Positions 10,111 through 54,703 of a stretch of 64,000 nt of DNA are shown here, one piece after another. Within the stretch, counting starts at the first letter, position 1, and each line of letters begins with the position of its first letter. The position numbers and the translations under genes were made by a program. The notes under the pieces are model-generated. The model was not told the origin of the DNA, ran no database searches, and was given only the letters and a program-made list of their open reading frames with translations. This stretch comes from Amanita rubescens (Eukaryota > Basidiomycota > Agaricomycetes > Agaricales > Amanitaceae): the NCBI GenBank assembly GCA_015039365.1, contig WION01000084.1:62001-126000 (forward strand), read 5' to 3'.

Positions 10111-10326
10111 AATATCAAGAAATGGGAGCCTGGAGGAAGGGACGAGGTTACCGTAACGGTTGGTTGACTCGAGTGTTGATCCGTTGATTACAACAAACAG
10201 ATACAAACAAGGCAACTCCGGATCCGGGGAAGTGGCGTGCAGCAGGTTTAGAGTGGTTTTCTTGGATGCCCTGGTGTAACGTGGGGCCGTTCCATTATAT
10301 GACAGCTTTATAAATACAAAATAGAA

Positions 10327-22520: not shown

Positions 22521-23961
22521 ATGACACAGGCATCCAAGGTCGAGATTGCTATAGCAGCGGTGACGGCTTGTGCGAGCCTCATGTCTTTGGTCGGCTCGGC
22601 ACTCATTTTGGTCTGCTACGCCATTCTACCGTTCGACCGTCATTTTCGTCACGTCTTGATTCTGAATCTCGCAACATCTGGTAGGCGACCGTTAATGCAT
22701 TTCCATTACTGTGCCCGGCTGATAGACGAACAGACTTTCTTCATTCCCTAAACAACGTTGTCCCCGATCTGCACATCGTTTCGCACAAGAAAGATTTGGC
22801 TCGTAGCCCTGCCTGCGTTTTCAACGGTTTTGCTACTCAGGTTACCGTTCAGGTAATTCCATGCGTCATGACCCTATCAATGAAGTTGACATAATATAAA
22901 GGCGACGGATTGTGCTGTGTTGGCGATTACAATAACTACGGTATATGCGATTACTAAGAGGGCAACTATATCATCAATGTCAGGAGGGCGATGGGAATGG
23001 AGATGGATAGTGCTGCTCACCTGTAGTATTTGGATTTTACCTATCTTCACGGGTGCGGTCAAAGTTTCATACCAAAAGACGCTGAAACAAATTCTTACTC
23101 TAGGATTCCTGGGCCTGGCGATGGAATGGTACAGTCCAGTCTCGGGAAGTTGGTTAGTGCCATCTTGGTGGTTACATATTGTAGACCTGACAATTTTGCG
23201 ATGGTTCAATAGGTGCTGGTTGGAAGCCAAGCCAGTTTATCTTCGTTACGTGCTAATGCACGGTTGGCGATTCTTGTTTATTTTCATCGAGGCACGTTAC
23301 AGTTGGTCCTAGCCTAACTCCGACACTAACGCGAACTAGATTGGACTCTTCATCTATCTAGTTCGTATCTTCAACAATGAGAAAGCGTTGTTATCTTTGA
23401 CGAGTTGTTCTAAAGGATATCCACCTTCGACGGCACTATCGAATGGTGTCGGAGAGCATTTCATCACGAAACATGGCTTCTCGTATCGCCTTTGATGAAC
23501 CAAGGCGTGAGTCAGCCATGCGACCTCCCGTCGGCGGATTCTCAATGCACGTTCTCAATGCGGGTGAAAAGCTGGGCGGGGCACATGACAGATACGCCGC
23601 CAGTCCCAGTGAGGCGTCCAACGTAGGCCTAATTGAACAAAACAAGTCCCGCCGCGTGTTTCATTGGTTTTCCCGCATATCGGGGCTACGGGGAACAAGC
23701 CAAACAGCTAGCTCTTTCTCTTCAGATACCCAACACCAGGCAGTTCAACGGGCACTTCTACTTAATGCCTACCCTTTGGCGTACATCATACTCTGGATTC
23801 CTGCACTTGCCAATCGGTTAATCGAGGCAACTGGAAGTTCAAGCATCCCGATGCAATTTTTGCAGGTGACTGCACAGCTAATCGGGTTAGCAAATGCATT
23901 GACCTACGGCTGGAATGAAAAAGTTGCGGAACTGCTGAAGGAGAAATTTGCAAGCCGATAG
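22521..23961 (+). CDS. Git3-like 7TM G-protein-coupled receptor, copy 2
   Basis: Seven exons (22521-22680, 22734-22852, 22902-23052, 23104-23152, 23213-23291, 23340-23360, 23416-23961), 374 aa. Exons 1, 2, 4, 5 and 6 have the same lengths as in copies 1 and 3 (160, 119, 49, 79, 21 bp). The 7TM pattern matches copy 1, including LILNLATSDFL, ATDCAVLAITITTVYAI and AYPLAYIILWIPALANRLIE. The intron after exon 5 has a GC donor (GAG|GCACGT) where both sister genes have GAG|GTATG, so it is either a GC-AG intron or a mutated donor. The cytoplasmic loop is diverged. It shares a divergent promoter region with the kinase-like gene ending at 22163. Confidence 0.82.
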
Positions 23962-24807: not shown

Positions 24808-26235
24808 ATGTCCCAAGCATCAACGGTCCAGATTGCGATGGCAGCAGTGACGGCCAGTACGAACATCTTATCCGTCAGCGGCTCTGCATTCATATTGGTG
24901 TGCTACACCATCTTACCATTCGACGGCCATTTTCGCCACATCTTGATTCTCAACCTAACAGTGACCGGTAGACGTCCTCTCATGCTTTGCTATATCACGA
25001 CTAGGCTGACAGAATTGTAGACTTTCTTCATGCCGTAAACAACATTGCTATCAGCTCATACGTCCTGGTACACAGGACAAATCTAGATCCAGGTTGTGCG
25101 TGCGTTTTCAATGGCTTTGTCGGCCAGGTTACCTCTCAGGTAATTCAATACATGAAAATTTGCCGGTCGAGCTGACATGACGAAAGGCTACCGATTGCTC
25201 TATCCTGGCGATTACAATAACTACAGTATATGCAATCACTAGGGGGACAGTTGAATCAACGTTCTCACCAAGAAGGCTATACGAGCGAATCGTGTTACTT
25301 AGTTGTTCTATATGGGCTTTACCCCTTTTCACAGGTACGACGCATTGTACGCACCGAAAAATACTGAAACTTATTCCTTATCACAGGGTTCCTGGCCTTA
25401 GGGATGGGATGGTATGGCCCGGTCACGGGAAGCCGGTAAATCTCTTTTGTTGTTTACGTGGTCCAGAACTGAGGGATCTGCGTGTATTGACAGGTGTTGG
25501 ATAAAAGAAAATCCAAAGTATCTTCGTTACGTGCTGACTCACGGCTGGCGTTTCTTGTTTATTATTATAGAGGTATGCCTCAGTTCACCGCTGACCTACT
25601 TCCATGCTAATACCAACTAGATTGGACTCTTCATCTATATGGTGCGAATTCCAATAGTTGTCTTGCGTCACAATCTTTAACGATTCAATTTGAAGGATGT
25701 CTATCTTCGGCGGCACTATCGAATGATGGCAAAGAGTATACCACCGTGGAATCCTGATCCTCCCCCCGCTCATTGCGAACCCTACGGAGGTTCGACTCTG
25801 GGTTCTTCTATATCAGAGGCATCAATTCAGGCTGTTGACGTGGGCGAACAGCAAGACAACAAGTCATCCACGTCCTCAGTTACCTTGGTCCGACAAAATA
25901 AGCCTTGTCGCGCGCTTCATTGGTTCTCGCGCATATCGGGCCTACGAGCAAGCCGATCGGGTAGCGATTTGTCCGCAGACACCCCATATTTGACAGTTCA
26001 CAAAGCGCTCCTCCTCAATGCGTACCCGTTGGCGTATATCATACTATGGCTTCCTGCCATTGCCAATCGGTTGATTGAGGCAACCGGGCATTCAAGCACT
26101 GTGATGCAGTTTCTGCAGTTGACTTCACAACTAGTAGGTCTAGCGAACGCGTTGACTTATGGTTGGAACGAAAGAGTGGAGAGGCAGCTAAAAGAAAAGT
26201 TTTCAAAGCGATCAATTGCCAATAACAAGGCATGA
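24808..26235 (+). CDS. Git3-like 7TM G-protein-coupled receptor, copy 3
   Basis: Seven exons (24808-24967, 25021-25139, 25187-25334, 25387-25435, 25494-25572, 25621-25641, 25696-26235), 371 aa, all joins in frame. Same helix order and landmark motifs as copies 1 and 2 (ATDCSILAITITTVYAI, RFLFIIIEIGLFIYM, AYPLAYIILWLPAIANRLIE, LTYGWNE). In the pre-TM5 block the Trp of copies 1 and 2 is an Arg (GSRCW). The Ngaro element begins 69 bp after the stop, so it probably sits in or near the 3' untranslated region or terminator. Confidence 0.84.
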
Positions 26236-32880: not shown

Positions 32881-33287
32881 TGTTAAATATAGAATTATAT
32901 TTATAGAATGATTAACTACTGATTGACTATAATCAATGTTACTCATATCGCTCACGTCATCCTTTATGTATGACATAGAGATGACATCATAATGACTTCA
33001 TTATGATATCATGGTGACATCATGATAGACTCATGATCACATCTTATGGTGTGCTTAACACGCCATACTTTCTCATCTATACTATACGCTTACACATATG
33101 TAGACACATATTTGTTCTCTCTTAGTATATAAACCTGTCCTGTATCGTAGAATAGGACAATCCATTCTCTTCCTCTTACTATCACTACTACGCCGAAGGG
33201 TAGTGCTAAGATCATATCGCAATAGGTAAGCTATTGCACCTGCTCATGCTGTGGACACGCTCTCGCGTAGACCTGTCTTCTTCGTCA
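32881..33287 (+). repeat. 5' LTR of element B
   Basis: 407 bp, tgttaaatata...cttcttcgtca. Contains the TATA-like tatataaac at about 33125-33140, a likely promoter, and short near-palindromes (atcatgatagactcatgat; tcataatgacttcattatga) in the upstream part that could bind regulators. Confidence 0.95.
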
Positions 33288-33300
33288 GGTTATGGGCCCC
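33288..33300 (+). promoter_or_regulatory. primer-binding site of element B (half tRNA-iMet)
   Basis: GGTTATGGGCCCC follows the LTR directly. It complements GGGCCCAUAACC, the anticodon arm of eukaryotic initiator tRNA-Met, not the 3' CCA end. This is the half-tRNA priming known for Drosophila copia and yeast Ty5 (hemiviruses). The same site occurs at 37882, 59328 and, inverted, 54704-54716. Confidence 0.88.
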
Positions 33301-33439
33301 GCCGTCGATATTGCCAGGACCCACATCGCCGCTCGCTTGCTCGTCATCCGACATGATGTCCCACTGGTATAGTATCGCAGCGAGCCTGATATGGTCTTAT
33401 CATCTTAAATATAACTAATCCTTGATATGGCATATGCGC

Positions 33440-33760
33440 TAATGACATGCGCCCGGACCCTAGGGCTTTAGGGGGATCTCCTAGACACCCAGGGATAAGG
33501 GTACAACCTATGTTTCTCGACGCTGGCATGGCAACGTCGGCCCCCACAGAGTTTTACTTGCCCTCTGTGATGTGACTGGGGTATTCATGCACGATATAAC
33601 ATCATAAGCCCCTAGAGGCTTTATAATACAATATGGCTCGTATATAGAAACTTCTAGTATAAAGGACGTGCTGACACCTCATTGTGGGTGGTACACGCAG
33701 TCTATTAAGGATGCGCCCTTAGGGACTCCTTTAGTCGGAATGATCGATAGGATCATTCTA
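33440..33760 (+). ncRNA. conserved structured leader of element B
   Basis: About 300 bp strongly alike 38037-38330 of element C, although the flanks differ. Three hairpins show compensatory changes: CGACG/CGTCG at 33518-33522 and 33535-33539; CACAGAG/CTCTGTG at 33545-33551 and 33563-33569; AAGCC/GGCTT at 33607-33611 and 33618-33622. Likely a packaging or dimerisation signal of the genomic RNA; the role is inference. Element A holds the same leader inverted near 54240-54560. Confidence 0.75.
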
Positions 33761-34185
33761 AGTTTGGGCTCTATGGTGATCCCATAATCCCATTTAGAAG
33801 TTTCATATTGATTACCGGTCGTGCTTATATAATGGTCTGGGGGGTTTATGGACCAGACATTATTTCTATTTACAATCGCAACGGGTAAAACCGTGGTTCG
33901 CCCAAGAGCGCTAGAGCCAGCGATTGATTTTGCATGTCATTTACAGCATTCAGGGATAATCCGAGCTTTCAAGACCGAGTGGACCTGTGGACCTGAGCTT
34001 TATCTAAGCTCGGCTTGTGACTAAGTTACTCAGGGTCGGTTGGTTTAACCGAATATGGACTGTACTCGTAACCGAGGAACTCCATATAGTCTGACATTCT
34101 AGTCTATGGCACCCTGGTAACTTAATAAAGACGAATTAGACTTTTAGCTTTAATTAAGCTTTAAGCTCATTATATTCTCTTTTAG

Positions 34186-34737
34186 GAAAGAAAACTGGAT
34201 TCCGAAACTAGTACTCCGTTACCAGTTTACGAAGCCGAAGGAGAATCATTTCCGCCTGCCCGGAGATTACCTCCTTCTTACGACGCACCTATCCCACCGT
34301 TTCCCTTAACCTTAGGGAACCGGACTTTTATTGATACACCGGCACCAATTCCATCTTCGTCCTATTCTAGGACGGTAGTTCGTGTTGTCAACTCTGACAC
34401 CAGATTCGGTGTCACAACTCGTGGACCTGTCACAGTTCACGATCGAAGAGATCACTTCTTAGCCGCACGACTTAGAAACGGTCGTACCTTGCAAGACGAA
34501 ATAATACATCGTCGTCGACAAGCAGCTATCGAAGAAGGTGTTCCGCCCACCTTAGATCTTTGGATTCCACCCAGGGGCACTTCAGTAGCCCAACACATAG
34601 CAAATAGGCGTACACGCCGTAATCTCGAAAGAGATAATCAAGAGGTCGAAAACCTCGAAAATCAAAGAAACTTCCGTTTCTTTTGGCGCCTTCTAACCGC
34701 CTATATCATAATCTTCACCTCCGCCTTCCTCGTCTAA
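34186..34737 (+). CDS. extra ORF upstream of gag in element B, C-terminal TM segment
   Basis: An open stretch of 183 codons begins right after a strong splice acceptor (ctcttttag at 34177-34185) and has no ATG, so its first exon must lie upstream in the leader or it starts at a non-AUG codon; I could not place that exon. The product is Pro-rich at first (APIPPFPLTL), then charged (RRTRRNLERDNQEVENLEN), and ends in a probable membrane helix FFWRLLTAYIIIFTSAFLV. The stop TAA is followed after one base by the ATG of gag, which suggests coupled translation. An apparently intact copy lies in element A (53268-53819). Copia elements normally lack such a gene; I recognise no family. Confidence 0.6.
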   Translation, partial: ERKLDSETSTPLPVYEAEGESFPPARRLPPSYDAPIPPFPLTLGNRTFIDTPAPIPSSSYSRTVVRVVNSDTRFGVTTRGPVTVHDRRDHFLAARLRNGRTLQDEIIHRRRQAAIEEGVPPTLDLWIPPRGTSVAQHIANRRTRRNLERDNQEVENLENQRNFRFFWRLLTAYIIIFTSAFLV

Positions 34738-37404
34738 CATGTCTAACGACTTGACGATTCCTAGTTCCATTCCCGTTTTGAATGGAACTAATTATAAAGA
34801 ATGGGAACGCATGATGCGTTTCCTATTACAAACAAAGGGACTGTTTCAGTACCTTAAGGATGATTATGTTCATCCTCCGCGGATTACTCCGCTACAACAA
34901 TTCTTCATTGATACAGGTGTTTGTGCAGCCATAACTGCACAACCTGCGGTAGCAGCAGTTGCCGCACATGGTGCACATCCAGCAACACCTGCAATCCCAG
35001 CCGTTGAGGGTGAACCGGCTATCACCCAACAAATGGTTGATGATGCAAAGGCCGTAAAAAAGGCTTTTGAAGATTGGGTTGTCGAGGATGATCGCATCCT
35101 CGGATCCATAAATATGAAATGTTCTGCTACTATACAGCAGATCAATTCAGAAGTAAATGCCGCCAGAGTATTATGGCGGAATTTAGCAAATCAATACGGT
35201 GTAACAACGTCTGCCGGTATTTATAATGACTTCCAATTAGCCGTTACTTGGAAGTTTCAAGATAGAAAGGATCCCACACAATCCTTAAACGACCTCCTCG
35301 CCATCATAAACCGCTTATCATCTAGCGGAATCGTATTGCCTGAAAATGTGCAGGCAATGATTGTACTTTCAGCTGTCCCCCGTCATTGGGACAATTTTGC
35401 CGCTGTGGTTCTTGCCACAACAGAACCATCGGATCTGACGATCCAAGGGATACTTCCCTTAATCCAGAATGAGTGGCGCCGAAGGCACCCTGAATCTGCC
35501 GCGACAGCTAATACGTCGCAACAACAGCAGCAACCATGGCAACAAGTACGTGGCCGAGGACGAGGACGTGCTCGCGGACGTGGCCGCGGAGCAGGTCGTG
35601 GACGTGGGGGGAGGCCTTACTCTAGGCCTCCACAAGGCGCTCAAACACCGGCTCCTACAGCTCCTCCGGCAAATCAAAATTGGCCGGGTAAAGTTGAGGG
35701 CCAAACACGTGGTCCTAACTGGGAGAGGAACCGAGAACGCCGAAAGGCAGATGCAGCCGAGAAGAAGGCTGCCAAAGCCGCAGAACATACTATGAGTTCT
35801 GCGCATACCGTCGCCCGTATTGGGCCTTATGACATCACTGAGCCAGTTGCCGGCTCTAGCAAAGGCAAACAAAGAGAAAAGGATGAACTGGACTTTGAGT
35901 CCTATAAATCAAACCGAGGAATGGGGATATCGTCAGACGATATCGACTACAAAAATATGGATATAGATCAGGAAGCTGAACTATATTACGATGATTATTA
36001 CTATGAAGATAACGGCGAACAATGGTATGAAACCATTAAGAAGCTGGAAATGGCTAACTTTCTCTTTATAGAGGCAGCAATGAAAATGGTGTTCCCTAAA
36101 TTGGGACATCATCGTCGTACTATAAATTCCTTCTTTGAACAATCTGTACTATATGATAGTATAAATTATAAAGAAAATTTAGACGAAACCTGCCTCGTAA
36201 GAGATAAGTCGTGTGACACTGTCATTTATAATGCAAATATGATCGAACGATCATATAATATTGGTAACATGTTTAAGAAACCTTTTACATGTTTAGCGGT
36301 CAATAAAAGAAAATTTAAGGATAAAGTACATCCGACATGTCCCTGTCCGGAATGTGTTGAGAAACGTACTGGAGATACACTATGGATGTGTGACTCTGGT
36401 GCATCCGACCACTTTACCTTTAGTAGGAAAGACTTCTCTGAATACAGAGAATTTCCTGCAAATGAAAACCACAGTGTCAAAACCGCTAATGGTTTAGACC
36501 GTCTTGAGGGACTTGGCACAGTTATTCTTGAACACAAGTTATCCACAGGAGAAGTAACACTCGTAAAGCTCTTTCCTGTATTATACATGCCACGGGCAAC
36601 TGCACGCTTAATTTCAAACGGCAGATTGATCCGACAAGGATTAACTTGTAAACAAGATGAAAAGATGGTAGTCTTTTCCTTTACAGACTCGGGTAGAACG
36701 TGTATCGAAGGACATTATCTTATGCCCGATGATACATTAGTTTACGCTCGAGGTAGGATTATTATAATGAATCCTACACTGGTTTCTGGTCCTGGCTTAG
36801 CCAACAGGAATTCTAAATTAATTCTTGGAAGACCGACAAAGAAACCAAACGCAGAGTCTATAGAAAAACTATTAGACTACGAGACCTGGCATAAACGTTT
36901 TGGTCATCCATCCAACGAAGTCTTTTCGAAGATACCGTTAAATGTTAATGGATGGAAAGAAGTTACACTTCCAGAAGGAAAACTACGTTGTGAAGGTTGT
37001 CTAAAAGGCAAAATGAAGGCAAAACCTTATAAACTGTCTTCGAAGAGAGCTACTCGTCCCTTTGAGTTACTCCATATGGATCTTATGACCGTACCGGCCA
37101 TATCTTACCACAAATACAAATATATTGGTGTTATCGTTGATGATTTCACCTCATATACATGGATTGGTTTATTAAAAACCAAAGATCAAACTCTAGAATA
37201 TTTTACCGGATGGTATAATGAGTTTGTAGATCCAAAACAACCTATTTCTCACCTCCGTTCTGATCGAGGGGGGGAATTTGTAAATAAAGCCTTTGAAGAA
37301 TTCCTTAAATCCAAAGGAATTAAACATCAACAGACAGCTCCTTACACTCCACAACAAAATGGTCGCGTTGAACGCATGAATCAGACTTTGTCAGACAAAG
37401 CTGA

Positions 37405-37881
37405 TGTTAAAGTTATCTTATCTAATCATATAAGATAACGTATATCTTATCTTATCTCATATAAGATAACACATCATATCTTATCCTATAGATTAGGATA
37501 TACAGATTAGATGTACATACATGTATATTCATATATATACATGTACATATACATACATAGGATATTCGATATATCCTATAGTCGCTTGCGTCATCCCATT
37601 ACTGCGGTAGACGCGTCATAGCTGCGCTAGACGTCATATCATACGTCATGCACAGCTCTTCCTCTATTTACTATACATTGTACTTATTAGGATACTAGTA
37701 GTATATAAGACTACCTGTACGTAGGTACAAACAAGAACCTTCCTTCTCCTCTTACCACCACATCCTATATCCATAGGATAGTGAGTTATCGTTCGAGGTC
37801 GTCACCGCCACTCTACACTCCACTCTAAGTAAGTATCCACTTTAACACTTAGACGCTGCGCTGCTGGGCGTATCTTCGTCA
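37405..37881 (+). repeat. 5' LTR of element C
   Basis: 477 bp. The first 150 bp consist of inverted and direct runs of tatcttat / ataagata (atcttatctaatcatataagat) and tacatgtat, so the LTR begins with a strong hairpin. A TATA-like tatataaga lies at about 37702. Confidence 0.95.
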
Positions 37882-37894
37882 GGTTATGGGCCCC
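37882..37894 (+). promoter_or_regulatory. primer-binding site of element C
   Basis: GGTTATGGGCCCC directly after the LTR, identical to that of element B, complementary to the anticodon arm of initiator tRNA-Met. Confidence 0.88.
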
Positions 37895-38036
37895 GACATG
37901 GTATTGCTTGCATCACCATCGCCTCCAGGCATGTTACCATGCAAGATGTGTGAACAGGTATAGTATTGTGCGGGTCGGAGACCTGAGTGGCATCCGTCAA
38001 TTTAACTAAGTTCTTGTACCTGACATACGAGCTCAT

Positions 38037-38330
38037 GACATGCGCCCGGACCCTAGGGCTTTAGGGGGATCTCCTTGCACCCAGGGATAAGGGTACCACC
38101 TATGTTTCTCAAGGCTGGCATGGCAACCTTGACCCCCACGGAGTTATACTTGCCCTCCGTGATGTGACTGGGGTATTCATGCACGATATTCCATTATAAG
38201 GCCCTTAGTGCCTTTAGTTACCGTATGTAGATCATATGGCCCGTAGTAACTTTCACAAAGTATAAAGGTCGTGCTGGGGTCCCATTGTGGACCATACACG
38301 CAGACTATTAGGCGTCCACTCCTAGAGAGC
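38037..38330 (+). ncRNA. conserved structured leader of element C
   Basis: Homologous to 33440-33760. The same three hairpins are kept with different bases: CAAGG/CCTTG at 38110-38114 and 38127-38131, CACGGAG/CTCCGTG at 38137-38143 and 38155-38161, AAGGC/GCCTT at 38198-38202 and 38210-38214. Loops of the first two are conserved (ctggcatggcaa; tt(a/t)tacttgcc). Confidence 0.75.
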
Positions 38331-38908: not shown

Positions 38909-40057
38909 ATGTCTTCTTTTACCAAAGAAGAAGACAGCGCTTTATGTTCCCTTGTCACCGAACTACAAGGAGACAATTATCGTGCCTGGGCACGACAAAT
39001 AACGGCATACTTTCAGATCTCAAATCTGATGGTATTCATGTGTCCCGTTATTCCAAATGCAATCCCTGCTCACCTTAAAGCAGTAATTGCGCCGATCACT
39101 GCCACCAATAAGGCAGCAATCATCATACAAGCTAATGAGCTTGTACAAAACGAGAAGGCGTTACACGCCATTAAGCTCAGATTGTCCTTTACAATCTTTG
39201 AGCTTTATCAACACGTTTACAACGCAAGACTCCTATGGATGTTCTTGCAAGAACGTTACAAAGATGATTCGCCAGCAATCCTTGACGGATCACTGGACAA
39301 AATAGATCATGATCGATCTATAAATAAAATCATCACTCGTTATAGACACATAGCAGCACAGGGACATCAATTCCCGGCTGCTCATCTAAATAAAGCACTT
39401 ACGACCATCAGGGCTGTTCCATCAAAATGGATCAACCAAACAGCGGCTACATCATCTGTTACCGCTATCAATACGAATTACTCTAGCCCTACGGCAGTAC
39501 GTTCAGGAAACACTGCCACACAAGTTGGACCAATCACAGTCCAGCAACTTGCTAGTGAAATTCGTTCGGCATGGTCGTCACGGCATAATGCTATAAAACA
39601 ATCACCTCCGTCAACGCAAGACTCTAACTTGCATACGGAACATTGTTTAGCTAATGCCTCCTTAACAAACAAGGGCAAAGGCCGCTGCAGATGCTCGCCG
39701 CATCCACAGCCTACACATTTGCGCTGGGAAGACTTTAAAAATAGTAGCAAGCCTGATTACATCAGGGGAGGATCTCCACTATTAGTCCAACAGTCTGAAT
39801 CTGATCAGGAATCAGATTCCACACATGATTCCTTTAAATCATGTAAATCAAATGTTTCCACGCCTTCACCTTTATCACACGAGTCTTTGACAGACTCGTT
39901 GGATACAAGAATAACAAATTCCCAGGAGGAATTTTATGATGCTCATGAAGATTTCGAGCGTCATTATGGAAATTTCATGGCTATGAATAGCTATGATCAA
40001 TGGGTAGAAGAACAATATAGCATAGACTTAGATCATTTCTGGAAGAAATATATGTAA
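38909..40057 (+). CDS. Gag-like protein of element C
   Basis: One exon, 382 aa. The N-terminal 180 residues follow the Copia Gag plan: LQGDNYRAWARQITAYF near 20-36, a helical region with ALHAIKLRLSFTIFELYQHV, LLWMFLQERYKDDS, and RYRHIAAQGHQFPAAHLNKA. The second half is Ser/Thr-rich with an acidic C-terminus. No CCHC knuckle is complete; CRCSPHPQPTH near 270 is only suggestive. It is intact while the element lacks all enzymes, so the element may have kept its own capsid protein for selection on packaging. Confidence 0.82.
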   Translation: MSSFTKEEDSALCSLVTELQGDNYRAWARQITAYFQISNLMVFMCPVIPNAIPAHLKAVIAPITATNKAAIIIQANELVQNEKALHAIKLRLSFTIFELYQHVYNARLLWMFLQERYKDDSPAILDGSLDKIDHDRSINKIITRYRHIAAQGHQFPAAHLNKALTTIRAVPSKWINQTAATSSVTAINTNYSSPTAVRSGNTATQVGPITVQQLASEIRSAWSSRHNAIKQSPPSTQDSNLHTEHCLANASLTNKGKGRCRCSPHPQPTHLRWEDFKNSSKPDYIRGGSPLLVQQSESDQESDSTHDSFKSCKSNVSTPSPLSHESLTDSLDTRITNSQEEFYDAHEDFERHYGNFMAMNSYDQWVEEQYSIDLDHFWKKYM

Positions 40058-42044
40058 TATATATAAATTGTTATCAATACAAGAGTATCGTGAAGGATCA
40101 CTCCTTATAAATCCGATTACTTGTCATACAATTTATATTCAAAATAAGGAAATCGTGAAGGCGTATGCCTTGCAATCCCGATTACTTATAAATAAAAATC
40201 TTTCTGGTGGTATTAAGCAAGGATCATTATCATTGCCAGAATATACCGCGTTCAAGGGAATTTCGATCACTTGAAGAAAGATCATCACGCTTGTCATCAT
40301 ATACAAGCACTAACACATATAATCTTCATCATTCAGAAATATCTATAAAGTCTACAATATAAAAACAATATCTTTAAAGCTCTCCACAAATGCAAACCGA
40401 TGTTTATAGCCTATAAACGGCTATAATCCATTTGCAGATAACAGTAATGTGTTACCTTTGAGAAAGGTTCCTTGCCGTTGAAACTTATACGGTTTTGAAA
40501 ACGTCTCATAATATGGTTTCCTACATTTGAGAAGGCTCCTTGCTGTTGAAATAGCACAGTCTTGAAAGTGTCTCATAACACTGTAGTCGCAATAGCAGTT
40601 TCAAGCTGCTGAACATTATCTGTTGGAGATAACAAATTTCTTGGTATAAATACCGTCATTCTTTAACGACGTTAGCAAGGATTTATCATCATTGCCAGAA
40701 TACTGTCGCATACAAGGGAATTTCGATCACTTGTATAAGAATAGACTTCTATGCTTATTTAAATAAGCATCTATAAACGTCCAGAGTATTTTTGTACTCA
40801 ACCTATAAATTGAATTGTACGGCGGCGCTATGCGCTCATCCCCTTTTCATATTAAAAATAGGTTTTCCAATAACAGGACAGACGTAATTAAAATACCTCG
40901 AAATAATTCTTATAGCTTTAAGAATTGTGGATTATAATTCTAAATGATTATCTATAGGAACCAGATCATCCTTGAGTGAAATACATGTACCATGACCATA
41001 TACGTTGACCAACGTCGTTATGTTGGATAATGTATTGTGTGAAACACAAGAACGGTTACATCTTTTTATAAAGATGATAAATTGACGAAATCATTGATTT
41101 CTTTAATACATGAAGATGATTTTTACAAATCATCACATGTTAAATAAGAATACTGTTCACATCACGTATATAATTAAAACGTGATAAATAGATCATGTCA
41201 AAAATATACATGATTCTATCAGGCTAAATAACGCAATAACAATCCCTGTCTTGATTGAGGGGGAATCATTGCAAATAAACAAGTACACAATATGACTTGT
41301 ATATGACCAATCAAAACAAGTATTTGATATAACTTGTATACACAAACAAGCATGGATGCGTATTAGATATAGGCCCATATTGTATATATATTATGGTTGC
41401 GTATTTAACATAGGCCCATAATAATGGTCATCAACTGTATTAGAGGAGGAAGCTCCCTCGATAATATACAGATGCCTGAACACGAACAAATATATGTATT
41501 GGAGTTTTATCCCCGTCTATTGTATAGAGAAGGCTCCTTGCCGTTGAAACTTATACGGTCTTGAAAGCGTCTCGTCTTTACAATATGACATTACACTCCT
41601 GACAAATATCCTAGTCAGGAACGTGTATTATTTGGAATGCCAGGTTAATGCATATCTCAAATAAGCCTGTCTTATGGCTTATCGCAAACAACCTCACATA
41701 TCCTCTCCATACATATAACAGTATTTCTTTATAAGAATCAATGGTAGCTTAAGAAACAAAGAAATAGATTATGATTAATCTTGCACCAGTTCCTTTCAAA
41801 ATACAGATTCCCAAATATCGTTCATACGATATTACGGTTGGATTATTGGAATACATTTAGTTCCTTGCACAGATCTTAGCCCTCAAAAGCGAAAGATAGG
41901 AACACCTTGCGTATAATCCAACACCCTCTTTAAATAACTCTAGTTCTTGGTCTCATCCGAACAATGGAGAATTTCCTTACACAAGTTTTGACGGTTTTCA
42001 GGTTGGTTAACAATATTCATATATTGTCGATCACTTGGGGATAC

Positions 42045-42062
42045 AGCAGACCCAATACTGCT
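42045..42062 (+). ncRNA. repeated mini-hairpin, copy 1
   Basis: Stem AGCAG/CTGCT with the 8-nt loop acccaata. Copies 42137-42154 (same stem, loop acactata) and 43013-43030 (GGCAG/CTGCC, loop acacaata) keep the pairing, the last by a compensatory A-T to G-C change. Confidence 0.55.
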
Positions 42063-42136
42063 ACGAATATAAACTTGTACAAGTCAACTTTTGAATGGGT
42101 AGCAATATTTATATATTGTGGGTCGTTCAAGGGCAC

Positions 42137-42154
42137 AGCAGACACTATACTGCT
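42137..42154 (+). ncRNA. repeated mini-hairpin, copy 2
   Basis: Stem AGCAG/CTGCT, loop acactata. The upstream context gtcgttcaaggg resembles that of copy 1 (tcgatcacttgggg). Confidence 0.5.
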
Positions 42155-43012
42155 ATGACTTCGAAATATCGTTATGATCTTCCTGGCGGTATTAGCAAGG
42201 ACATGTTGTCATTGCCAAAATATACCGTATATGAATGAGCTTCGGCCAACTCATAAGGAGGATCTTTATAAATAACGAATTTCGGTTTAACGTTGTCATT
42301 ATACGTTGAACATCAAAAAGGATATTCAAGATCATTCGACGAGACTTCCCCATTCGAGTTCTATACTCTTATTGCATCTGGATAATGCATAAAGATAAAA
42401 TAGAATCAGGGCAGAACAAGAATTAACAGAGTTAAGAGGACATTGCTTGCCAACGGACTACACGTAACAGAGGAATAATCCTTGTTTAAGGATTAATATA
42501 GGCTGTACTGAAAAGGAAACCTATATCGGATAACGTCGCAGTTATACCTTCCCAGTAGACGTGTTCATGTTGAATATATCGTCCAAAAAAGATAGTCATT
42601 GACACTCAAATGACTTAGAGGTCAAAATCTCGTTCATACGAGATATTATATAAGTGTTTGTTCCTCTATACAAACACTTATAATTATACTTGTTCCAATA
42701 CAAGTATATCCTCTTCGTCATAGAGAATCTATATTAAAAATAGATTCAATATGCTATAATGGGGTGGCGCCTGCCTTGCGCAAATCCCCAAATATACAAG
42801 TATGAGTGAATGCGGAATGTCGATCATTCTCGGATCCTCAACTAAACTTGTCATGACAACGGTCGTATCCCTGTGGGTGTAGACCTTTAAAGTCATATTC
42901 GTATCTTGTATCCATACACAAGGTACAATAAATATAGCATATACAAAACAAGATTAAACATCTTGAACACAGTGTCTAACAAAGGATTACATCATTAATG
43001 ATCGTCGGGTAC

Positions 43013-43030
43013 GGCAGACACAATACTGCC
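43013..43030 (+). ncRNA. repeated mini-hairpin, copy 3
   Basis: Stem GGCAG/CTGCC, loop acacaata. The outer base pair is changed on both sides compared with copies 1 and 2. Confidence 0.5.
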
Positions 43031-44759
43031 AGCAAATTATCTTTATATTAAGATAAAATGCGCCGGGCACTTATAGCAGTTATTACTGCTGATCATATAT
43101 GGTAAAACCCTTTTATAATGATTACCAAGATATATTGCAAATGTGGATGACCACCACATATAAGTCAAGTAGGGAATCATATCTGTATGAGCATCCAGTA
43201 AAATGTATCTGGATTCACTTACACGATTAAGATACCGAGTACACTTGTAAAACGCGAGATAACAGCTCGCATACAAGCTCGTATTTAATAATCGTCACAC
43301 AAGCTCAGGAATTGGATAATGATGAAGTTCATCTCATTATTATGAGATCAGGAGATTTGTCTCCCCGCTGGTGTTGTGCGTTCCTATCAAAATAGGGATA
43401 TATGGAATCACAACCAGAATACAATCCTTTACGAAAGTGATTACAAAGGATTTAATGATATGCAAATCATCATACCAGACGGATTATCATCATTTACAAA
43501 AGACAAGATATACACACATATCTATAGAAGGGAACATTCGTTGTTCTATAACAGACGGGTCAAATGCTTTGAAAGCATAAGTCCTTTAAAGGCCCAAGGA
43601 CTTCGCTCTGTTGAACAACATAGATATTCTTTAAGACACATGGTTGAACTCTTTATCGAAATTTAAAAAGGAGTTTTTGTCGATATAACAGAGATGTAAA
43701 CCATGATGTATAAGAATTATCTGGGCAACCGTCTATAAACATAATTCGCTTGTCGTCACACTTGTATTTACAAGGACGAGCAATTATATTAGACCATAAA
43801 CAATTGGTACACTTGTTGTTACAAGTAAAATTGTCACGCGTGCAACTTGCCGATCAAGTGAACACGCCACATCATATTCTCGTATTGCTGTGCAAAGAGA
43901 ATATATACTCCTTTACGATTAAAGGTGCTAGTCACCTTTACACCACATAAGGCATTGAACGCCTTTAGACATAATAGGAGAATATACGAGTTACATATAA
44001 TCAGAACTTGTAAAGAAACAAGGAATGATTATCACACTCGTCACACATACGAGCAGAGAGTATTTGCAAGGGAGGAAGCTCCCCTTGTAGAGATACTATA
44101 CTCGTTTAAATAGTGCATTTAGGAAGACACGTCAAGTTTTTACTTGACAATGCGACATATACACACTCGCATATCCATCAGAGGATTCTTTTCACACAAA
44201 GAATCATCGTCATATATCTTGCTATTTACATAGCTTGATATTTATGCAAGTTGTTAAACGTTATCGTTTACCTGCCAAAATATTCATTTAGCACTTAAGG
44301 ATATATTCTTATCCTTTATCAAACAAAGTAATAAATCATATCAGAGACAGTGAAGGCAGTAGAACAAGCCCCTTCTCGATAAATATGATTTCACACACTT
44401 TGTAAGGCTTGAAGCCTGGGGGTGCTTTTATAATGGATATTGTCAACATGACAGGAAACTCGATTTTTGATAAATCGATTCAAACAATATACACCATTGT
44501 ATTGGCTTTTCAATAAAGTCATATCCTATATCTTTAGGATCAAACAATGATAAATATTGTATAACGTATACAACAAGCATTATAGGAATATTAAAGAAAT
44601 ATATAAATACAAGGGATTAAGGTGAAAGCAGCATATAGTCTGGATCCCCATACTTGTACACGAAACGAGAGATCTTCCGTGAAGACTTTCAAGTCTTACA
44701 ATTCCGGTGACTCGTATAAAAATATTTCATATATTCCTGGATAACTTAGCGAGGGGGTG

Positions 44760-45236
44760 TGTTAAAGTTATCTTATCTAATCATATAAGATAACGTATAT
44801 CTTATCTTATCTCATATAAGATAACACATCATATCTTATCCTATAGATTAGGATATACAGATTAGATGTACATACATGTATATTCATATATATACATGTA
44901 CATATACATACATAGGATATTCGATATATCCTATAGTCGCTTGCGTCATCCCATTACTGCGGTAGACGCGTCATAGCTGCGCTAGACGTCATATCATACG
45001 TCATGCACAGCTCTTCCTCTATTTACTATACATTGTACTTATTAGGATACTAGTAGTATATAAGACTACCTGTACGTAGGTACAAACAAGAACCTTCCTT
45101 CTCCTCTTACCACCACATCCTATATCCATAGGATAGTGAGTTATCGTTCGAGGTCGTCACCGCCACTCTACACTCCACTCTAAGTAAGTATCCACTTTAA
45201 CACTTAGACGCTGCGCTGCTGGGCGTATCTTCGTCA
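44760..45236 (+). repeat. 3' LTR of element C
   Basis: 477 bp, same as 37405-37881 by eye, followed by the target duplication gctga and the continuation of the integrase gene of B. Confidence 0.95.
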
Positions 45237-48200
45237 GCTGAGGCTATGCGATTAGACGCAGGATGTCCGAAATCTTGGTGGGAGTTCTCATTCAGAACGG
45301 CTGTGCATGTGTACAACCGCACTCCCCTAAAACGGACTAAATGGAAGACCCCTCTGGAAAATCTTCTTAATAAAAAACCAGACGTATCATACTTTCGAGT
45401 ATTTGGATGTGAAGCCTGGGTATTTATCCCTGATCAACGGAGACCGGATAAGCTGTCCGAGAAATCCGTTTTATGTACTTTTGTAGGATATGAATCAGGA
45501 ACCAAAGGCTATAGGTTCATGACGTCGACAAACACACTGGTCATATCCTCCCAGGCCACATTCTTTGAAAACAGGTTTCCGCGGAAAGGAAAGACTGCAG
45601 ATATAATTACTGAAGATCTTGGTCCGATCTGGGAGGCGATTCCTCAAGAGGAACCTAACCGCCCTCCACAAAATTTGGATTTAGATGACTTACTCCCAGA
45701 GAACCGTAGACGTTCTCCGAGCAGAAGACGCTCACCTGGTTTGGATCGAAGGGGTGCATCTCCTGATAGACAGCAATCAGACCCTTCTGATGATTCAAAC
45801 GATGATGACGACGGTGATGAATTTGCCGATCGTCGAAGAGATTTTTTGGATGATAATATCCAAAGGCAAAGGGATGAAAGAGAACAAGAAAGACGTGACA
45901 ATTATCGTAGACAACGCGATGATTGGAAAAGGGGTCAAGGAATTGATAAACAATCTCGTCTACGAGATCAATTCAAACGTCAAATGAGTGATATGTTTAA
46001 GAAACGTAAAACTCCTGAACCCTTTAGACGCACTCCCTCTCCACAAATAAAAGAGGAGACTCCTGTTCCTTCTAGGCCTATAACTCCGATACCATATGTA
46101 TCTAGGCCACCTTCGCCTCGTAGTCCTATGGATGAAGATAATCCCTTCTCTTTGAATCAAAGAGATCGAGATGAAATAGAAAACCCATTTATGACGGATC
46201 GAGAATTTGATCAATTTGAACAACGTCAAAGAGATCGTTTTAGAGAATTTGCTCAGAGACCTAGACCTCCTCCACCGATCGTATCTGATCCTGGTCCACC
46301 CTCTGTACAAATAGGTCCTCGCCGTTCTGGTCGTTTTCCAATTCCAAGGGTACAAAGAGACAACGCGTATGGAGATAAAACTCCTGCACAGATAGAAGCG
46401 GAAATTCAGCAAAAGCGAGACGCTTTACGAGAGCAGTTAAAAGATAAAACTCCGAGTTCTTCAACTCAGGATCCACCGTCAGCAGACAGGAACCCTGATA
46501 GAATGAATGAATCTGCCTCTCTACTCAAAGAGATCTTTGCATTAAAGTCTGAATTAAAATCTGCGGAACATGATCATTTAACTCGAATGATTAATGAATC
46601 CGGAAATGAATTACTTCATTTCCTTCTCAAAGCGGCTGTCCCCCTTGTGGATAATATTCCATATGACTATAGAGATATATCTAAAATGCGCTCCAGTAAT
46701 CCTCAATTGTATAAACAATGGAAGATTGCAATGGATGACGAATTTAAATCTCTTCAATCTAGAGATATTTGGGAGTTAGTTGATCTTCCAAAAGGACGAA
46801 ACCTAATTAGATGTCGTTGGGTTTTCGACTTAAAAACCGATGGACGCAAAAAAGCTCGCGTCGTAGCTAAAGGTTTTAGTCAACGTCCCGGATTAGATTA
46901 CGACGAAACATTCTCGCCTGTAGCGAGATATGAAACAATCCGAATACTTCTGGCCACATCAGTGCTTGAAAACTGGGATATACAAGCCCTAGATGTAAAA
47001 ACTGCCTTCTTATATGGCGATCTTGATGAAGATATTTACATGGCCCAGCCAGAAGGTTTCGTTGTAAAAGGACAAGAATCTAAAGTATATAGGCTGAGGA
47101 AAGCCATATATGGATTGAAACAGGCATCATATGCCTAGAATAAACAAGCTGATAAATCGTTGAAATCGTTGCATTTCGAACGATGCTTGTCTGATTCTGG
47201 CGTTTACGTTCGTAAAGGCAAGAATACTATCACGATATGCATACTGTATGTCGATGATATACTCTTTATGGGAAATGACGATTCCACCATCGCATCCATT
47301 AAAAAGAAATTTATGGAGATGTGGGAATGTCGCGATCTTGGAAAGATCAAAGAGTATTTACGAATCCAAGTCAATTACAACCGTGATTTAGGATTTTTAG
47401 TCATAGATCAAGGTCCTTATGCCTTGAAGGTTGTTAAGCGATTTGGACTTGAAGATTGCAAGTCTGTCCGCACACCGTTACCTGCTGGGTATGCTCCTAT
47501 AAAAAATGAAGGAGAATGCACACCACAGGAACGTTCTTATTATCAACAGATAATAGGATCCCTTCTATATCTTGCCTTAGGAACTAGGCCTGATATAATC
47601 TATGCAGTAATTTTGATGTCCCAATTTTCATCAAACCCGTCCCAAGAACATATCCAGAAAGCCTTGTATATAGTCAAATACATTGCTCATACCTTAAACG
47701 TCAAAATCGTTTATAGCGCCAAAGGCAATAATAAATTTAGAGCCTATGCTGACGCTGACTGGGCCGCTGATCGTAATACACGACGATCTATAAACGGTTA
47801 TGTCTTAATGTTAGCTGGTGGTGCCGTAGCTTGGACGAGTAGAAAACAAAAGACTGTAGCTCTGTCTTCAACTGAAGCAGAATACATATCTTTATCGGAT
47901 GCTGCAAGACAAATTGCATGGGTTGAAAATCTATTTTACGAAATAGGTGCACCCATTAAAAGCATCTTACTTAGCGTAGATAACCAAGGCGCTATATTTT
48001 GGGCACAAAATCCTGCACAAGAACATCGTTCCAAACACATTGATATTCGCTATCATTTCGTTCGCGAGTTGATCGAGACTAAAAAGGTAGTCCTCGAATA
48101 CATACCAACCAACGAGCAGAATGCGGATCTCATGACTAAGAATTTATCCTTTGAAAAGGTCAAATTCTTTAGAGAACGATTGGGACTTTCCTTAGAAGAA

Positions 48201-48433
48201 TATCCGACTTCTACAAATGCATTAATCAAAAGACCAGATCGATTAGAGACTGAGGAAATCCGTGATCTGACGAAATTTATTCTTGATTGGCAAAATCTTG
48301 AATTAGATGATATTGATCGTCTATCACACAAGAAGTTGATGGAACTTCTTGATGGTCTTATTGATCAACAGGAATCGGATATAGATCCCTTCTATGATGA
48401 GAACATCATAGACTTTAAATAAAGGATATCTAA

Positions 48434-48444: not shown

Positions 48445-48851
48445 TGTTAAATATAGAATTATATTTATAGAATGATTAACTACTGATTGACTATAATCAA
48501 TGTTACTCATATCGCTCACGTCATCCTTTATGTATGACATAGAGATGACATCATAATGACTTCATTATGATATCATGGTGACATCATGATAGACTCATGA
48601 TCACATCTTATGGTGTGCTTAACACGCCATACTTTCTCATCTATACTATACGCTTACACATATGTAGACACATATTTGTTCTCTCTTAGTATATAAACCT
48701 GTCCTGTATCGTAGAATAGGACAATCCATTCTCTTCCTCTTACTATCACTACTACGCCGAAGGGTAGTGCTAAGATCATATCGCAATAGGTAAGCTATTG
48801 CACCTGCTCATGCTGTGGACACGCTCTCGCGTAGACCTGTCTTCTTCGTCA
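48445..48851 (+). repeat. 3' LTR of element B
   Basis: 407 bp, same as 32881-33287 by eye. Followed by target duplication ttttc (48852-48856) and the interrupted RNase H frame of element A. Confidence 0.95.
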
Positions 48852-51800
48852 TTTTCTACTCGTCCAAGCTACGGCACCACCAGCTAACATTAAGACATAA
48901 CCGTTTATAGATCGTCGTGTATTACGATCAGCGGCCCAGTCAGCGTCAGCATAGGCTCTAAATTTATTATTGCCTTTGGCGCTATAAACGATTTTGACGT
49001 TTAAGGTATGAGCAATGTATTTGACTATATACAAGGCTTTCTGGATATGTTCTTGGGACGGGTTTGATGAAAATTGGGACATCAAAATTACTGCATAGAT
49101 TATATCAGGCCTAGTTCCTAAGGCGAGATATAGAAGGGATCCTATTATCTGTTGATAATAAGAACGTTCCTGTGGTGTGCATTCTCCTTCATTTTTTATA
49201 GGAGCATACCCAGCAGGTAACGGTGTGCGGACAGACTTGCAATCTTCAAGTCCAAATCGCTTAACAACCTTCAAGGCATAAGGACCTTGATCTATGACTA
49301 AAAATCCTAAATCACGGTTGTAATTGACTTGGATTCGTAAATACTCTTTGATCTTTCCAAGATCACGACATTCCCACATCTCCATAAATTTCTTTTTAAT
49401 GGACACGATGGTGGAATCGTCATTTCCCATAAAGAGTATATCATCGACATACAATATGCATATCGTGATTGTATTCTTGCCTTTACGAACGTAAACGCCA
49501 GAATCAGACAAGCATCGCTCGAAATGCAACGATTTCAACGATTTATCAGCTTGTTTATTCCAGGCATATGATGCCTGTTTCAATCCATATATGGCTTTCC
49601 TCAGCCTATATACTTTAGATTCTTGTCCTTTTACAACGAAACCTTCTGGCTGGGCCATGTAAATATCTTCATCAAGATCGCCATATAAGAAGGCAGTTTT
49701 TACATCTAGGGCTTGTATATCCCAGTTTTCAAGCACTGATGTGGCCAGAAGTATTCGGATTGTTTCATATCTCGCTACAGGCGAGAATGTTTCGTCGTAA
49801 TCTAATCCGGGACGTTGACTAAAACCTTTAGCTACGACGCGAGCTTTTTTGCGTCCATCGGTTTTTAAGTCGAAAACCCAACGACATCTAATTAGGTTTC
49901 GTCCTTTTGGAAGATCAACTAACTCCCAAATATCTCTAGATTGAAGAGATTTAAATTCGTCATCCATTGCAATCTTCCATTGTTTATACAATTGAGGATT
50001 ACTGGAGCGCATTTTAGATATATCTCTATAGTCATATGGAATATTATCCACAAGGGGGACAGCCGCTTTGAGAAGGAAATGAAGTAATTCATTTCCGGAT
50101 TCATTAATCATTCGAGTTAAATGATCATGTTCCGCAGATTTTAATTCAGACTTTAAAGCAAAGATCTCTTTGAGTAGAGAGGCAGATTCATTCATTCTAT
50201 CAGGGTTCCTGTCTGCTGACGGTGGATCCTGAGTTGAAGAACTCGGAGTTTTATCTTTTAACTGCTCTCGTAAAGCGTCTCGCTTTTGCTGAATTTCCGC
50301 TTCTATCTGTGCAGGAGTTTTATCTCCATACGCGTTGTCTCTTTGTACCCTTGGAATTGGAAAACGACCAGAACGGTGAGGACCTATTTGTACAGAGGGT
50401 GGACCAGGATCAGATACGATCGGTGGAGGAGGTCTAGGTCTCTGAGCAAATTCTCTAAAACGATCTCTTTGACGTTGTTCAAATTGATCAAATTCTCGAT
50501 CCGTCATAAATGGGTTTTCTATTTCATCTCGATCTCTTTGATTCAAAGAGAAGGGATTATCTTCATCCATAGGACTACGAGGCGAAGGTGGCCTAGATAC
50601 ATATGGTATCGGAGTTATAGGCCTAGAAGGAACAGGAGTCGACCATTTTGTTGTGGAGTGTAAGGAGCTGTCTGTTGATGTTTAATTCCTTTGGATTTAA
50701 GGAATTCTTCAAAGGCTTTATTTACAAATTCCCCCCCTCGATCAGAACGGAGGTGAGAAATAGGTTGTTTTGGATCTACAAACTCATTATACCATCCGGT
50801 AAAATATTCTAGAGTTTGATCTTTGGTTTTTAATAAACCAATCCATGTATATGAGGTGAAATCATCAACGATAACACCAATATATTTGTATTTGTGGTAA
50901 GATATGGCCGGTACGGTCATAAGATCCATATGGAGTAACTCAAAGGGACGAGTAGCTCTCTTCGAAGACAGTTTATAAGGTTTTGCCTTCATTTTGCCTT
51001 TTAGACAACCTTCACAACGTAGTTTTCCTTCTGGAAGTGTAACTTCTTTCCATCCATTAACATTTAACGGTATCTTCGAAAAGACTTCGTTGGATGGATG
51101 ACCAAAACGTTTATGCCAGGTCTCGTAGTCTAATAGTTTTTCTATAGACTCTGCGTTTGGTTTCTTTGTCGGTCTTCCAAGAATTAATTTAGAATTCCTG
51201 TTGGCTAAGCCAGGACCAGAAACCAGTGTAGGATTCATTATAATAATCCTACCTCGAGCGTAAACTAATGTATCATCGGGCATAAGATAATGTCCTTCGA
51301 TACACGTTCTACCCGAGTCTGTAAAGGAAAAGACTACCATCTTTTCATCTTGTTTACAAGTTAATCCTTGTCGGATCAATCTGCCGTTTGAAATTAAGCG
51401 TGCAGTTGCCCGTGGCATGTATAATACAGGAAAGAGCTTTACGAGTGTTACTTCTCCTGTGGATAACTTGTGTTCAAGAATAACTGTGCCAAGTCCCTCA
51501 AGACGGTCTAAACCATTAGCGGTTTTGACACTGTGGTTTTCATTTGCAGGAAATTCTCTGTATTCAGAGAAGTCTTTCCTACTAAAGGTAAAGTGGTCGG
51601 ATGCACCAGAGTCACACATCCATAGTGTATCTCCAGTACGTTTCTCAACACATTCCGGACAGGGACATGTCGGATGTACTTTATCCTTAAATTTTCTTTT
51701 ATTGACCGCTAAACATGTAAAAGGTTTCTTAAACATGTTACCAATATTGTATGATCGTTCGATCATATTTGCATTATAAATGACAGTGTCACACGACTTA

Positions 51801-53819: not shown

Positions 53820-54703
53820 CTAAAAGAGAATATAATGAGCTTAAAGCTTAATTAAAGCTAAAAGTCTAATTCGTCTTTATTAAGTTACCAGGGTGCCATA
53901 GACTAGAATGTCAGACTATATGGAGTTCCTCGGTTACGAGTACAGTCCATATTCGGTTAAACCAACCGACCCTGAGTAACTTAGTCACAAGCCGAGCTTA
54001 GATAAAGCTCAGGTCCACAGGTCCACTCGGTCTTGAAAGCTCGGATAATCCCTGAATGCTGTAAATGACATGCAAAGTCAATCGCTGGCTCAAGCGCTCT
54101 TGGGCGAACCACGGTTTTACCCGTTGCGATTGTAAATAGAAATAATGTCTGGTCCATAAACCCCCCAGACCATTATATAAGCACGACCGGTAATCAATAT
54201 GAAACTTCTAAATGGGATTATGGGATCACCATAGAGCCCAAACTTAGAATGATCCTATTGATCATTCCGACTAAAGGAGTCCCTAAGGGCGCATCCTTAA
54301 TAGACTGCGTGTACCACCCACAATGAGGTGTCAGCACGTCCTTTATACTAGAAGTTTCTATATACGAGCCATATTGTATTATAAAGCCTCTAGGGGCTTA
54401 TGATGTTATATCGTGCATGAATACCCCAGTCACATCACAGAGGGCAAGTAAAACTCTGTGGGGGCCGACGTTGCCATGCCAGCGTCGAGAAACATAGGTT
54501 GTACCCTTATCCCTGGGTGTCTAGGAGATCCCCCTAAAGCCCTAGGGTCCGGGCGCATGTCATTAGCGCATATACCATATCAAGGATTAGTTATATTAAG
54601 ATGATAAGACCATATCAGGCTCGCTGCGATACTATACCAGTGGGACATCATGTCGGATGACGAGCAAGCGAGCGGCGATGTGGGTCCTGGCAATATCGAC
54701 GGC

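Follow-up and report, generated by a model that had tools for sequence, protein, structure and literature searches.

A covarying leader RNA fold shared among retrotransposon families of Amanita rubescens and its possible role in packaging

The window analysed here, 64,000 nucleotides of Amanita rubescens DNA (assembly GCA_015039365.1, contig WION01000084.1, positions 62,001 to 126,000 of the forward strand), contains two long terminal repeat (LTR) retrotransposons, designated B and C, and raises the question why an enzyme-coding element and a Gag-only element should share a leader of about 300 bp. Comparison of leader copies in the genome indicates that this region is very likely a selected sense-strand RNA fold; what the fold may do is weighed below against the organisation of the elements that carry it.

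Pairing and covariation in the leader

The following leader regions and stems were delimited.

33440-33740, + strand: leader of B as first described, shared with C
about 38030-38330, + strand: leader of C as first described, shared with B
33484..33628, + strand: leader core of B (covariation, 74 distinct copies); stems P1 33488-33492/33576-33580, P2 33517-33522/33535-33540, P3 33545-33551/33563-33569, P4 33606-33610/33617-33621
38076..38219, + strand: leader core of C (covariation; covariance-model match of 176.8 bits, this sequence being part of the model); stems P1 38080-38084/38168-38172, P2 38109-38114/38127-38132, P3 38137-38143/38155-38161, P4 38198-38202/38210-38214

The closing helix P1 encloses the hairpins P2 and P3, and P4 then follows. 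The initial annotation had described paired changes between B and C in three stems of the shared leader, and these were confirmed from the letters at both leaders: the arms of P2 are TCGACG/CGTCGG in B and TCAAGG/CCTTGA in C, those of P3 are CACAGAG/CTCTGTG and CACGGAG/CTCCGTG, and those of P4 are AAGCC/GGCTT and AAGGC/GCCTT, respectively. The alignment of B with C needs one gap at P4 because the loop of this hairpin has 6 nt in B and 7 nt in C.

Further copies were sought in the 75.7-Mb assembly (786 contigs), of which the window is a part. The leader motif CCCAGGGATAAGGGTA ... CTGGCATGGCAA has 167 exact genome copies, about 100 of which were listed, compared with none for the reversed control. 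The motif stretches look conserved among these copies because the search demands exact motifs; leaders found by BLAST, which are free of this bias, are nearly the same, with a few loops changed. The 126 core places in the loci, overlapping loci being counted repeatedly, reduce to 74 distinct cores.

Standard pairs occupy 1683 of the 1697 stem cells in these cores (99.2%), and nine of the 23 pairs have changed on both sides, compared with 23-48% pairing and 0 to 2 two-sided pairs when the 3' partner was slid by 1 to 5 columns. A set of 10 sequences gave 99.1% paired cells and nine two-sided pairs, against a shuffle mean of 5.2 and with the observed number equalled in 1 of 500 shuffles. Paired changes also occur apart from the contrast of B with C: the pair at the loop end of P2 has changed from G-C to A-U in L084, a copy of B, and in L113, a copy of a further family, D. 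Additional examples are C-G to U-A in P2 (L096 and L097) and in P4 (L119), and in copy L102 both arms of P3 have gained an insertion. In the summed table of the 74 cores, whose related copies do not give independent cells, G·U cells (71) are more frequent than A·C cells (9), which speaks for the sense RNA as the folded form.

Substitutions were also reshuffled along a FastTree tree (300 nulls, with a variant that confines the moves to paired columns), although mosaic copies break the single-tree assumption of the tests. On the tree from all columns, 13 compensatory branches in seven pairs were observed, whereas the nulls had a mean of 0.34 (maximum 2) or, when only paired columns could exchange substitutions, 0.96 (maximum 5); pair-breaking branches numbered 11 against 28.4 or 24.8, respectively. 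The tree from unpaired columns gave 23 compensatory branches against 0.55 (maximum 3) or, in the confined variant, 1.88 (maximum 6). The observed values were equalled by 0 of 300 nulls in each of the four runs.

Several results weigh against a selected fold. Fourteen stem cells are unpaired (nine A-C or C-A, five other). In a self-written pairwise G-test with average product correction and an R-scape-style null (E<=0.05), none of the 23 proposed pairs and no other pair was significant when all 10,153 column pairs of the 74 cores were considered, and in 40 longer leaders (299 columns) seven column pairs reached the threshold, one of them proposed; the other six join columns in or behind P3 that differ blockwise between copies. 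The power of this test is low because the copies are close relatives. The two highest-scoring of all pairs are proposed ones, and four of the 23 proposed pairs (nine of which vary on both sides) were significant when the test was confined to them. Finally, the folding energy of the 300-nt leader is ordinary (z -0.16 and 0.16) and local folding of the leaders is unexceptional (mean z -0.44 and -0.32), so that thermodynamic stability was dropped as evidence and the case for the leader consists of covariation.

The initial annotation had named two outcomes that would speak against RNA structure, unpaired changes in the same stems of further copies and a covariation test without significant pairs. 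Regarding the first, some copies do carry such changes in P2, P3 and P4, yet 99.2% of cells are paired; regarding the second, the tree and two-set tests support the fold, whereas the R-scape-like test on one set in part gave the adverse outcome. Its claim of selection on RNA structure is nevertheless well supported by pairing counts, shuffles and the tree null.

Further helices and a palindrome were recognised around the core.

33455..33466, + strand: region of the conserved palindrome CCCTAGGG in the 5' part of the leader, a candidate dimer contact, exact in 51 of 53 distinct leaders
33664..33703, + strand: hairpin P5 of B, loop CATTGT; outer helix 33664-33667/33700-33703, inner helix 33675-33679/33686-33690
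33707..33731, + strand: hairpin P6 of B, 33707-33711/33727-33731 (pairing counts)
33739..33757, + strand: hairpin P7 of B, 33739-33745/33751-33757, not in C
33829..33863, + strand: hairpin P8 of B, loop holding TTTATGGA; 33829-33833 and 33835-33840 with 33853-33858 and 33859-33863

The patterns for P5 to P8 were drawn up after the sequences had been seen, and the counts omit stretches that were unmatched or too short. With this limit, paired cells amount to 322/324 in 81 of 100 stretches for the outer helix of P5 (19 omitted), 409/410 in 82 of 101 for its inner helix (19 omitted), 391/395 in 79 of 101 for P6 (22 omitted; four of five pairs with two-sided changes) and 343/343 in 49 of 101 for P7 (52 omitted; one pair with a two-sided change, in D). 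For P8, 387/396 cells are paired in the 36 of 67 stretches of the B/D type, with two of 11 pairs two-sided, and 203/203 in the 29 of 67 stretches of the C type. These helices reach about 33863 in B, and the folded region thus exceeds the 300 nt first reported.

A pseudoknot between the P2 loop (GCATG) and a downstream CATGC was rejected, as the downstream partner varies (ACTGC, ATTGC, ACAGC) while the loop is constant. Rfam gave no match at gathering score in the window and none up to E 5 in 33280-34200. An occurrence of the leader in prokaryotes or viruses was likewise rejected: a 16-mer of the motif matched 29 genome-collection stretches and one viral stretch, the number expected by chance in collections of this size, and the leader covariance model scored at most 15 bits on these 30 loci compared with about 176 for true leaders.

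The elements that carry the leader

The transposons form a nested block (about 31.9 to 55.1 kb), in which the repeats place C inside one B copy and this copy inside a second, inverted one.

32881..33287, + strand: 5' LTR of B, with a TATA-like box and a predicted splice donor CAATAG/GTAAGC, donor GT at 33226 (repeats D5 and I5)
33288..33299, + strand: primer binding site GGTTATGGGCCC of B (same motif directly 3' of the LTR in B, C and D)
34739..37399, + strand: B polyprotein, gag and integrase part, as far as the C insertion (Pfam gag, gag_pre-integrs and rve)
37405..37881, + strand: 5' LTR of C, predicted donor CTCTAA/GTAAGT at 37829; identical 3' LTR at 44760-45236
38909..40057, + strand: Gag-like frame of C, 382 aa, the sole long frame (genome matches to the frame)
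from 48445, + strand: 3' LTR of B (repeat pairing with the 5' LTR)
54379..54521, - strand: leader RNA core of the second, inverted B copy (inverted repeat I1 and leader covariance model)

In B, the integrase (rve, 34739-37438) precedes the reverse transcriptase (RVT_2, 45246-48422) of the same interrupted element, and with this order, its LTRs and its primer site B is a Ty1/copia element on the features tested. The primer site GGTTATGGGCCC is presumably of the half initiator-tRNA type.

Element C is flanked by a GCTGA target duplication (37400-37404 and 45237-45241), and its insertion is recent, as both LTRs are identical over 477 bp. Among the matches listed, at least 27 genome matches to its Gag-like frame cover at least 381 of the 382 residues, two of them with one stop, and the protein shares 96% identity with an Amanita rubescens hypothetical protein. 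A Pfam scan of the frame gave no domain match; the label Gag rests on similarity to the Gags of D (38% identity over 110 aa) and B (23% over 158 aa). The proteins of B and C, initially described as different, are indeed distinct, yet this similarity makes their Gags distant relatives. With LTRs, target duplication, a Gag frame and no polymerase, C is, as judged from these sequence features, of the TR-GAG type, that is, an LTR element with Gag and without polymerase. The 4.7 kb between gag and the 3' LTR of C (40060-44750) have no long frames and contain recurring motifs, e.g., GAGAAGGCTCCTTGCCGTTGAAAC.

Family D has frames of up to 2033 aa behind a third leader type, with an N-terminus about 36-43% identical to the C Gag among the matches listed. 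The initial proposal that an enzyme-coding family and a Gag-only element have the leader in common therefore holds for B and C, and D joins them as a second enzyme-coding family. The leaders of B and D are 89% identical over 442 nt, compared with 78% identity in a 281-residue piece of their reverse transcriptases, in which DNA identity is 71% and that of third codon positions 46%; the leader has thus either been conserved much more strongly than neutral sites or passed between the families by exchange.

The primer site is present in 84 of 88 long loci, and in every locus with a primer site the core lies at a fixed 187-200 nt behind it. The region between primer site and core is far more variable than the core, with about 0.7 identity between a B subtype and C. 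Some leader copies have no upstream primer site or are cut within the leader (L044, L046, L069, L087 and L104), and two of these (L069 and L104) break after similar sequence ending in AACACTA.

The P3 module exists in two versions that cut across families. Two C elements, L042 and L043, match the C-type copy L009 outside this module (identity 0.96-1.0 in the remainder of the leader), yet within it their identity is 0.89 with L065, a copy of the B subtype, and 0.73 with L009. Such a mosaic could come from template switching between co-packaged RNAs. Assignment of L062, L065 and L079 to a separate element E was rejected; they represent the B subtype with another P3.

Outside the transposon block, the window begins with a tandem 90-bp repeat (1-721, repeat families D1 and D2). 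A gene-like stretch is present in three diverged copies (14738-15207, 22898-23459 and 25183-25739), one of which has a weak match (E 0.0005, just under the cut-off) to a fungal glucose-receptor domain, and a single frame on the - strand (8752-10215) fuses an isochorismatase domain with a glutathione S-transferase domain.

A predicted intron and the possible roles of the leader

The position of the leader relative to predicted splice sites bears on its role.

33226..34185, + strand: intron of B as predicted from splice motifs and ATG pattern, GTAAGC ... TTCTCTTTTAG
34186..34738, + strand: predicted second exon of B, ending at the gag ATG, with no ATG in any frame
34195..34737, + strand: ATG-less frame of B from an in-frame CTG to a TAA located one base upstream of the gag ATG; among 26 distinct copies, 20 keep it open

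The predicted intron of B contains the primer site, the entire folded leader and 22 ATGs, and ends with a strong acceptor motif (TTCTCTTTTAG, ending at 34185). A donor-like GTAAGC or GTAAGT lies at most 70 nt upstream of the primer site, inside the LTR, in 84 of the 84 loci that have the site (some loci overlap), and the presumed first exon has no ATG in B or C. The 552 nt from the acceptor to gag in B have no ATG compared with 7.1 expected from base shuffles (P 0.001), an expectation that falls to 2.75 by a first-order Markov estimate; this stretch is ATG-free in 20 of 26 distinct copies, and the other six contain 1 to 6 ATGs. For D, represented by one locus (L059), no ATG occurs in the 567 nt upstream of gag compared with 7.7 expected (0 of 2000 shuffles). 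In C, 22 ATGs occur up to 38687 and none in the final 221 nt before gag. On the simplest reading of these patterns, the leader appears to be intronic, with Gag made from spliced RNA and the primer site and fold kept on unspliced RNA.

The most likely role of the leader fold, to which about even chances are given, would be that of a packaging, perhaps dimerisation, signal of the unspliced genomic RNA in three related copia-type families. Splicing from the LTR donor to the acceptor before the ATG-free exon would leave the Gag messenger without the leader; spliced RNA would then serve for translation and unspliced RNA for packaging. The Gag of the autonomous families, or that of C itself, would recognise the fold, which would allow the enzymes of B or D to copy the Gag-only C; the palindrome CCCTAGGG would be a candidate dimer contact. 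This role is favoured by the fixed distance to the primer site, the predicted intron that would remove the leader, the P3 module common across families, the presence of the fold in two enzyme-coding families and the Gag-only C, and the palindrome's constancy among leaders. Regarding the initial interpretation, selection on RNA and sharing of the leader were borne out, while the packaging or dimerisation role is still something we infer.

A number of observations count against this assignment. Over 135 residues the Gags of B and D share only 25% identity, so that recognition of one signal by both cannot be taken for granted; gene conversion could also yield mosaic leaders. An acceptor was pinned down in neither C nor D, and the ATG gap of C alone is not significant (2.1 expected, P 0.11). 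By analogy with other systems, an intron position is neither required for packaging nor proof of it: RSV and HIV-2 are reported to have the packaging signal on both spliced and unspliced RNA (PMC5035971), and the RNAs of Ty1 and Ty3 are described as not divided into translated and packaged pools.

The alternative that survives best, though still unlikely, is a nuclear export or intron-retention element, with packaging specified elsewhere. The leader lies within the predicted intron and would be confined to unspliced RNA, which needs such help, but comparison with known export elements gave no match in Rfam, and export does not require a place directly behind the primer site. Internal ribosome entry or another form of translation control for Gag is distinctly improbable: the 22 ATGs upstream of gag in B would indeed face ribosomes scanning unspliced RNA, but the absence of ATGs both ahead of gag in B and D and in the first exon suggests scanning on a spliced messenger, and the fold ends hundreds of bases short of the gag ATG. 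Equally improbable is a function at the start of reverse transcription, in presenting the primer site or holding the tRNA primer, for while the constant 187-200 nt distance in all three families would fit, the intervening region is much more variable than the core and the hairpins extend to about 570 nt behind the primer site. That there is no selected structure, the paired changes having arisen by chance or by recent exchange of leader DNA between families, can be given hardly any weight, since mosaic leaders, the one-set pairwise test without a significant proposed pair and the ordinary folding energy are outweighed by a tree null in which 0 of 300 equal the observed compensatory or pairing counts and by slid helices that are 23-48% paired compared with 99%.

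Packaging of unspliced RNA, the preferred role, may be part of a wider arrangement. In the ATG-less frame of B, variable sites by codon position number 47/27/81 among its 26 distinct copies, a bias towards the third position, and the frame contains LPPSY and LPVY motifs and a hydrophobic C-terminus. A similar frame with TPLPVY and a hydrophobic tail precedes gag in D (L059). The frame of B has one protein match in a set of 5.8 billion.

Short local hairpins crowd 34739-37399, 38909-40057, 40060-44750 and 48849-50570 (- strand) far beyond dinucleotide and, for the coding pieces, codon-preserving shuffles, and in a scan of the window the transposon block stands out in folding on both strands. 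The mean z of local folding is -2.54 for B gag-pol, -3.74 for C gag and -2.27 for the C interior, compared with -0.27 for a host stretch. Under codon-preserving shuffles, z is -8.5 for C gag, -10.3 for the 5' part of B gag-pol, -5.6 for the B reverse transcriptase, -4.4 for the D piece and -3.5 for the upstream frame, and -2.0 to 1.4 for five host frames, some of which are perhaps not genes. The antisense values in the same order are -8.9, -8.6, -7.4, -3.4 and -1.8; folding of the antisense is nearly as strong or stronger, and selection on RNA rather than DNA is thus not proven. Third codon positions of C gag are variable at 27/128 sites in predicted stems compared with 42/92 outside (Fisher P 0.00013), whereas covariation in its hairpins is mixed, with three two-sided compensations and 53 one-sided changes that preserve pairing against 92 one-sided breaks.

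Genome-scale ordered RNA structure is known in some RNA viruses. The hairpin-packed sequence of these elements resembles it by analogy, folding beyond codon-preserving shuffles having been found in five element pieces; among the papers listed from an open-access library, none by its title or visible abstract describes such structure in LTR retrotransposons. A retrovirus-like RNA economy that combines an LTR-to-gag intron with a shared packaging code, a hairpin-chain genome and an ATG-less frame making a tail-anchored PPxY-type protein is a tentative proposal, possible but rather doubtful as a whole.

Comparison with known systems

In retroviruses, a structured leader RNA behind the primer site, psi, allows Gag to select unspliced RNA (PMC5035971). 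Conserved RNA structure behind the primer site was likewise found in the B, C and D leaders, and the palindrome, as a candidate dimer contact, also fits; the present leader differs in having no homology to psi and in belonging to a fungal copia-type element, with packaging as a predicted function. In RSV the splice donor lies downstream of psi, so that both RNAs carry it (PMC5035971), whereas the donor here is predicted upstream of the leader, inside the LTR.

In Ty1, the signals for packaging are located in the first 580 nt of the RNA and palindromes have been proposed for dimer contact, and the packaging sequences of Ty1 and Ty3 are not precisely defined (PMC4974528). The Ty1 5' cis-acting domain and the leader have in common the copia-type element, the 5' position of the signals and a palindrome as proposed dimer contact; they differ in that Ty1 RNAs form no two pools, whereas splicing would sort the RNA here. 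For LTR retrotransposons in general, such signals are poorly characterised. The leader offers a defined target, with stems, constant loops and a palindrome, and natural compensatory changes across over a hundred genomic copies make it testable part by part. A covarying leader common to several families was not found among the papers listed from an open-access library.

Within the copia superfamily, the closest parallel is barley BARE1, in which splicing of a 104-nt intron at the gag end parts the Gag messenger from the genome, in 2013 called the sole demonstrated case in the superfamily besides copia itself; BARE2, a parasite of BARE1 with incomplete genes and without Gag, is packaged by the latter (PMC3735527). 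The superfamily, a division of messenger from genome by splicing (predicted here) and an incomplete partner are common to both systems. In contrast to BARE1, the predicted intron spans the LTR through the leader rather than the gag end, and such an intron holding the packaging region would be new for copia elements according to the open-access literature listings. The leader also provides a natural system in which to examine whether splicing divides messenger from genome in copia elements.

Regarding the partner, BARE2 is without Gag, whereas C has Gag only. Like TR-GAG elements, C has LTRs and Gag and no polymerase; it differs from them in being fungal, in its 4.7 kb interior without long frames and in a covarying leader common to two autonomous families. 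This leader also allows a natural test of the way in which an element with Gag alone exploits autonomous partners.

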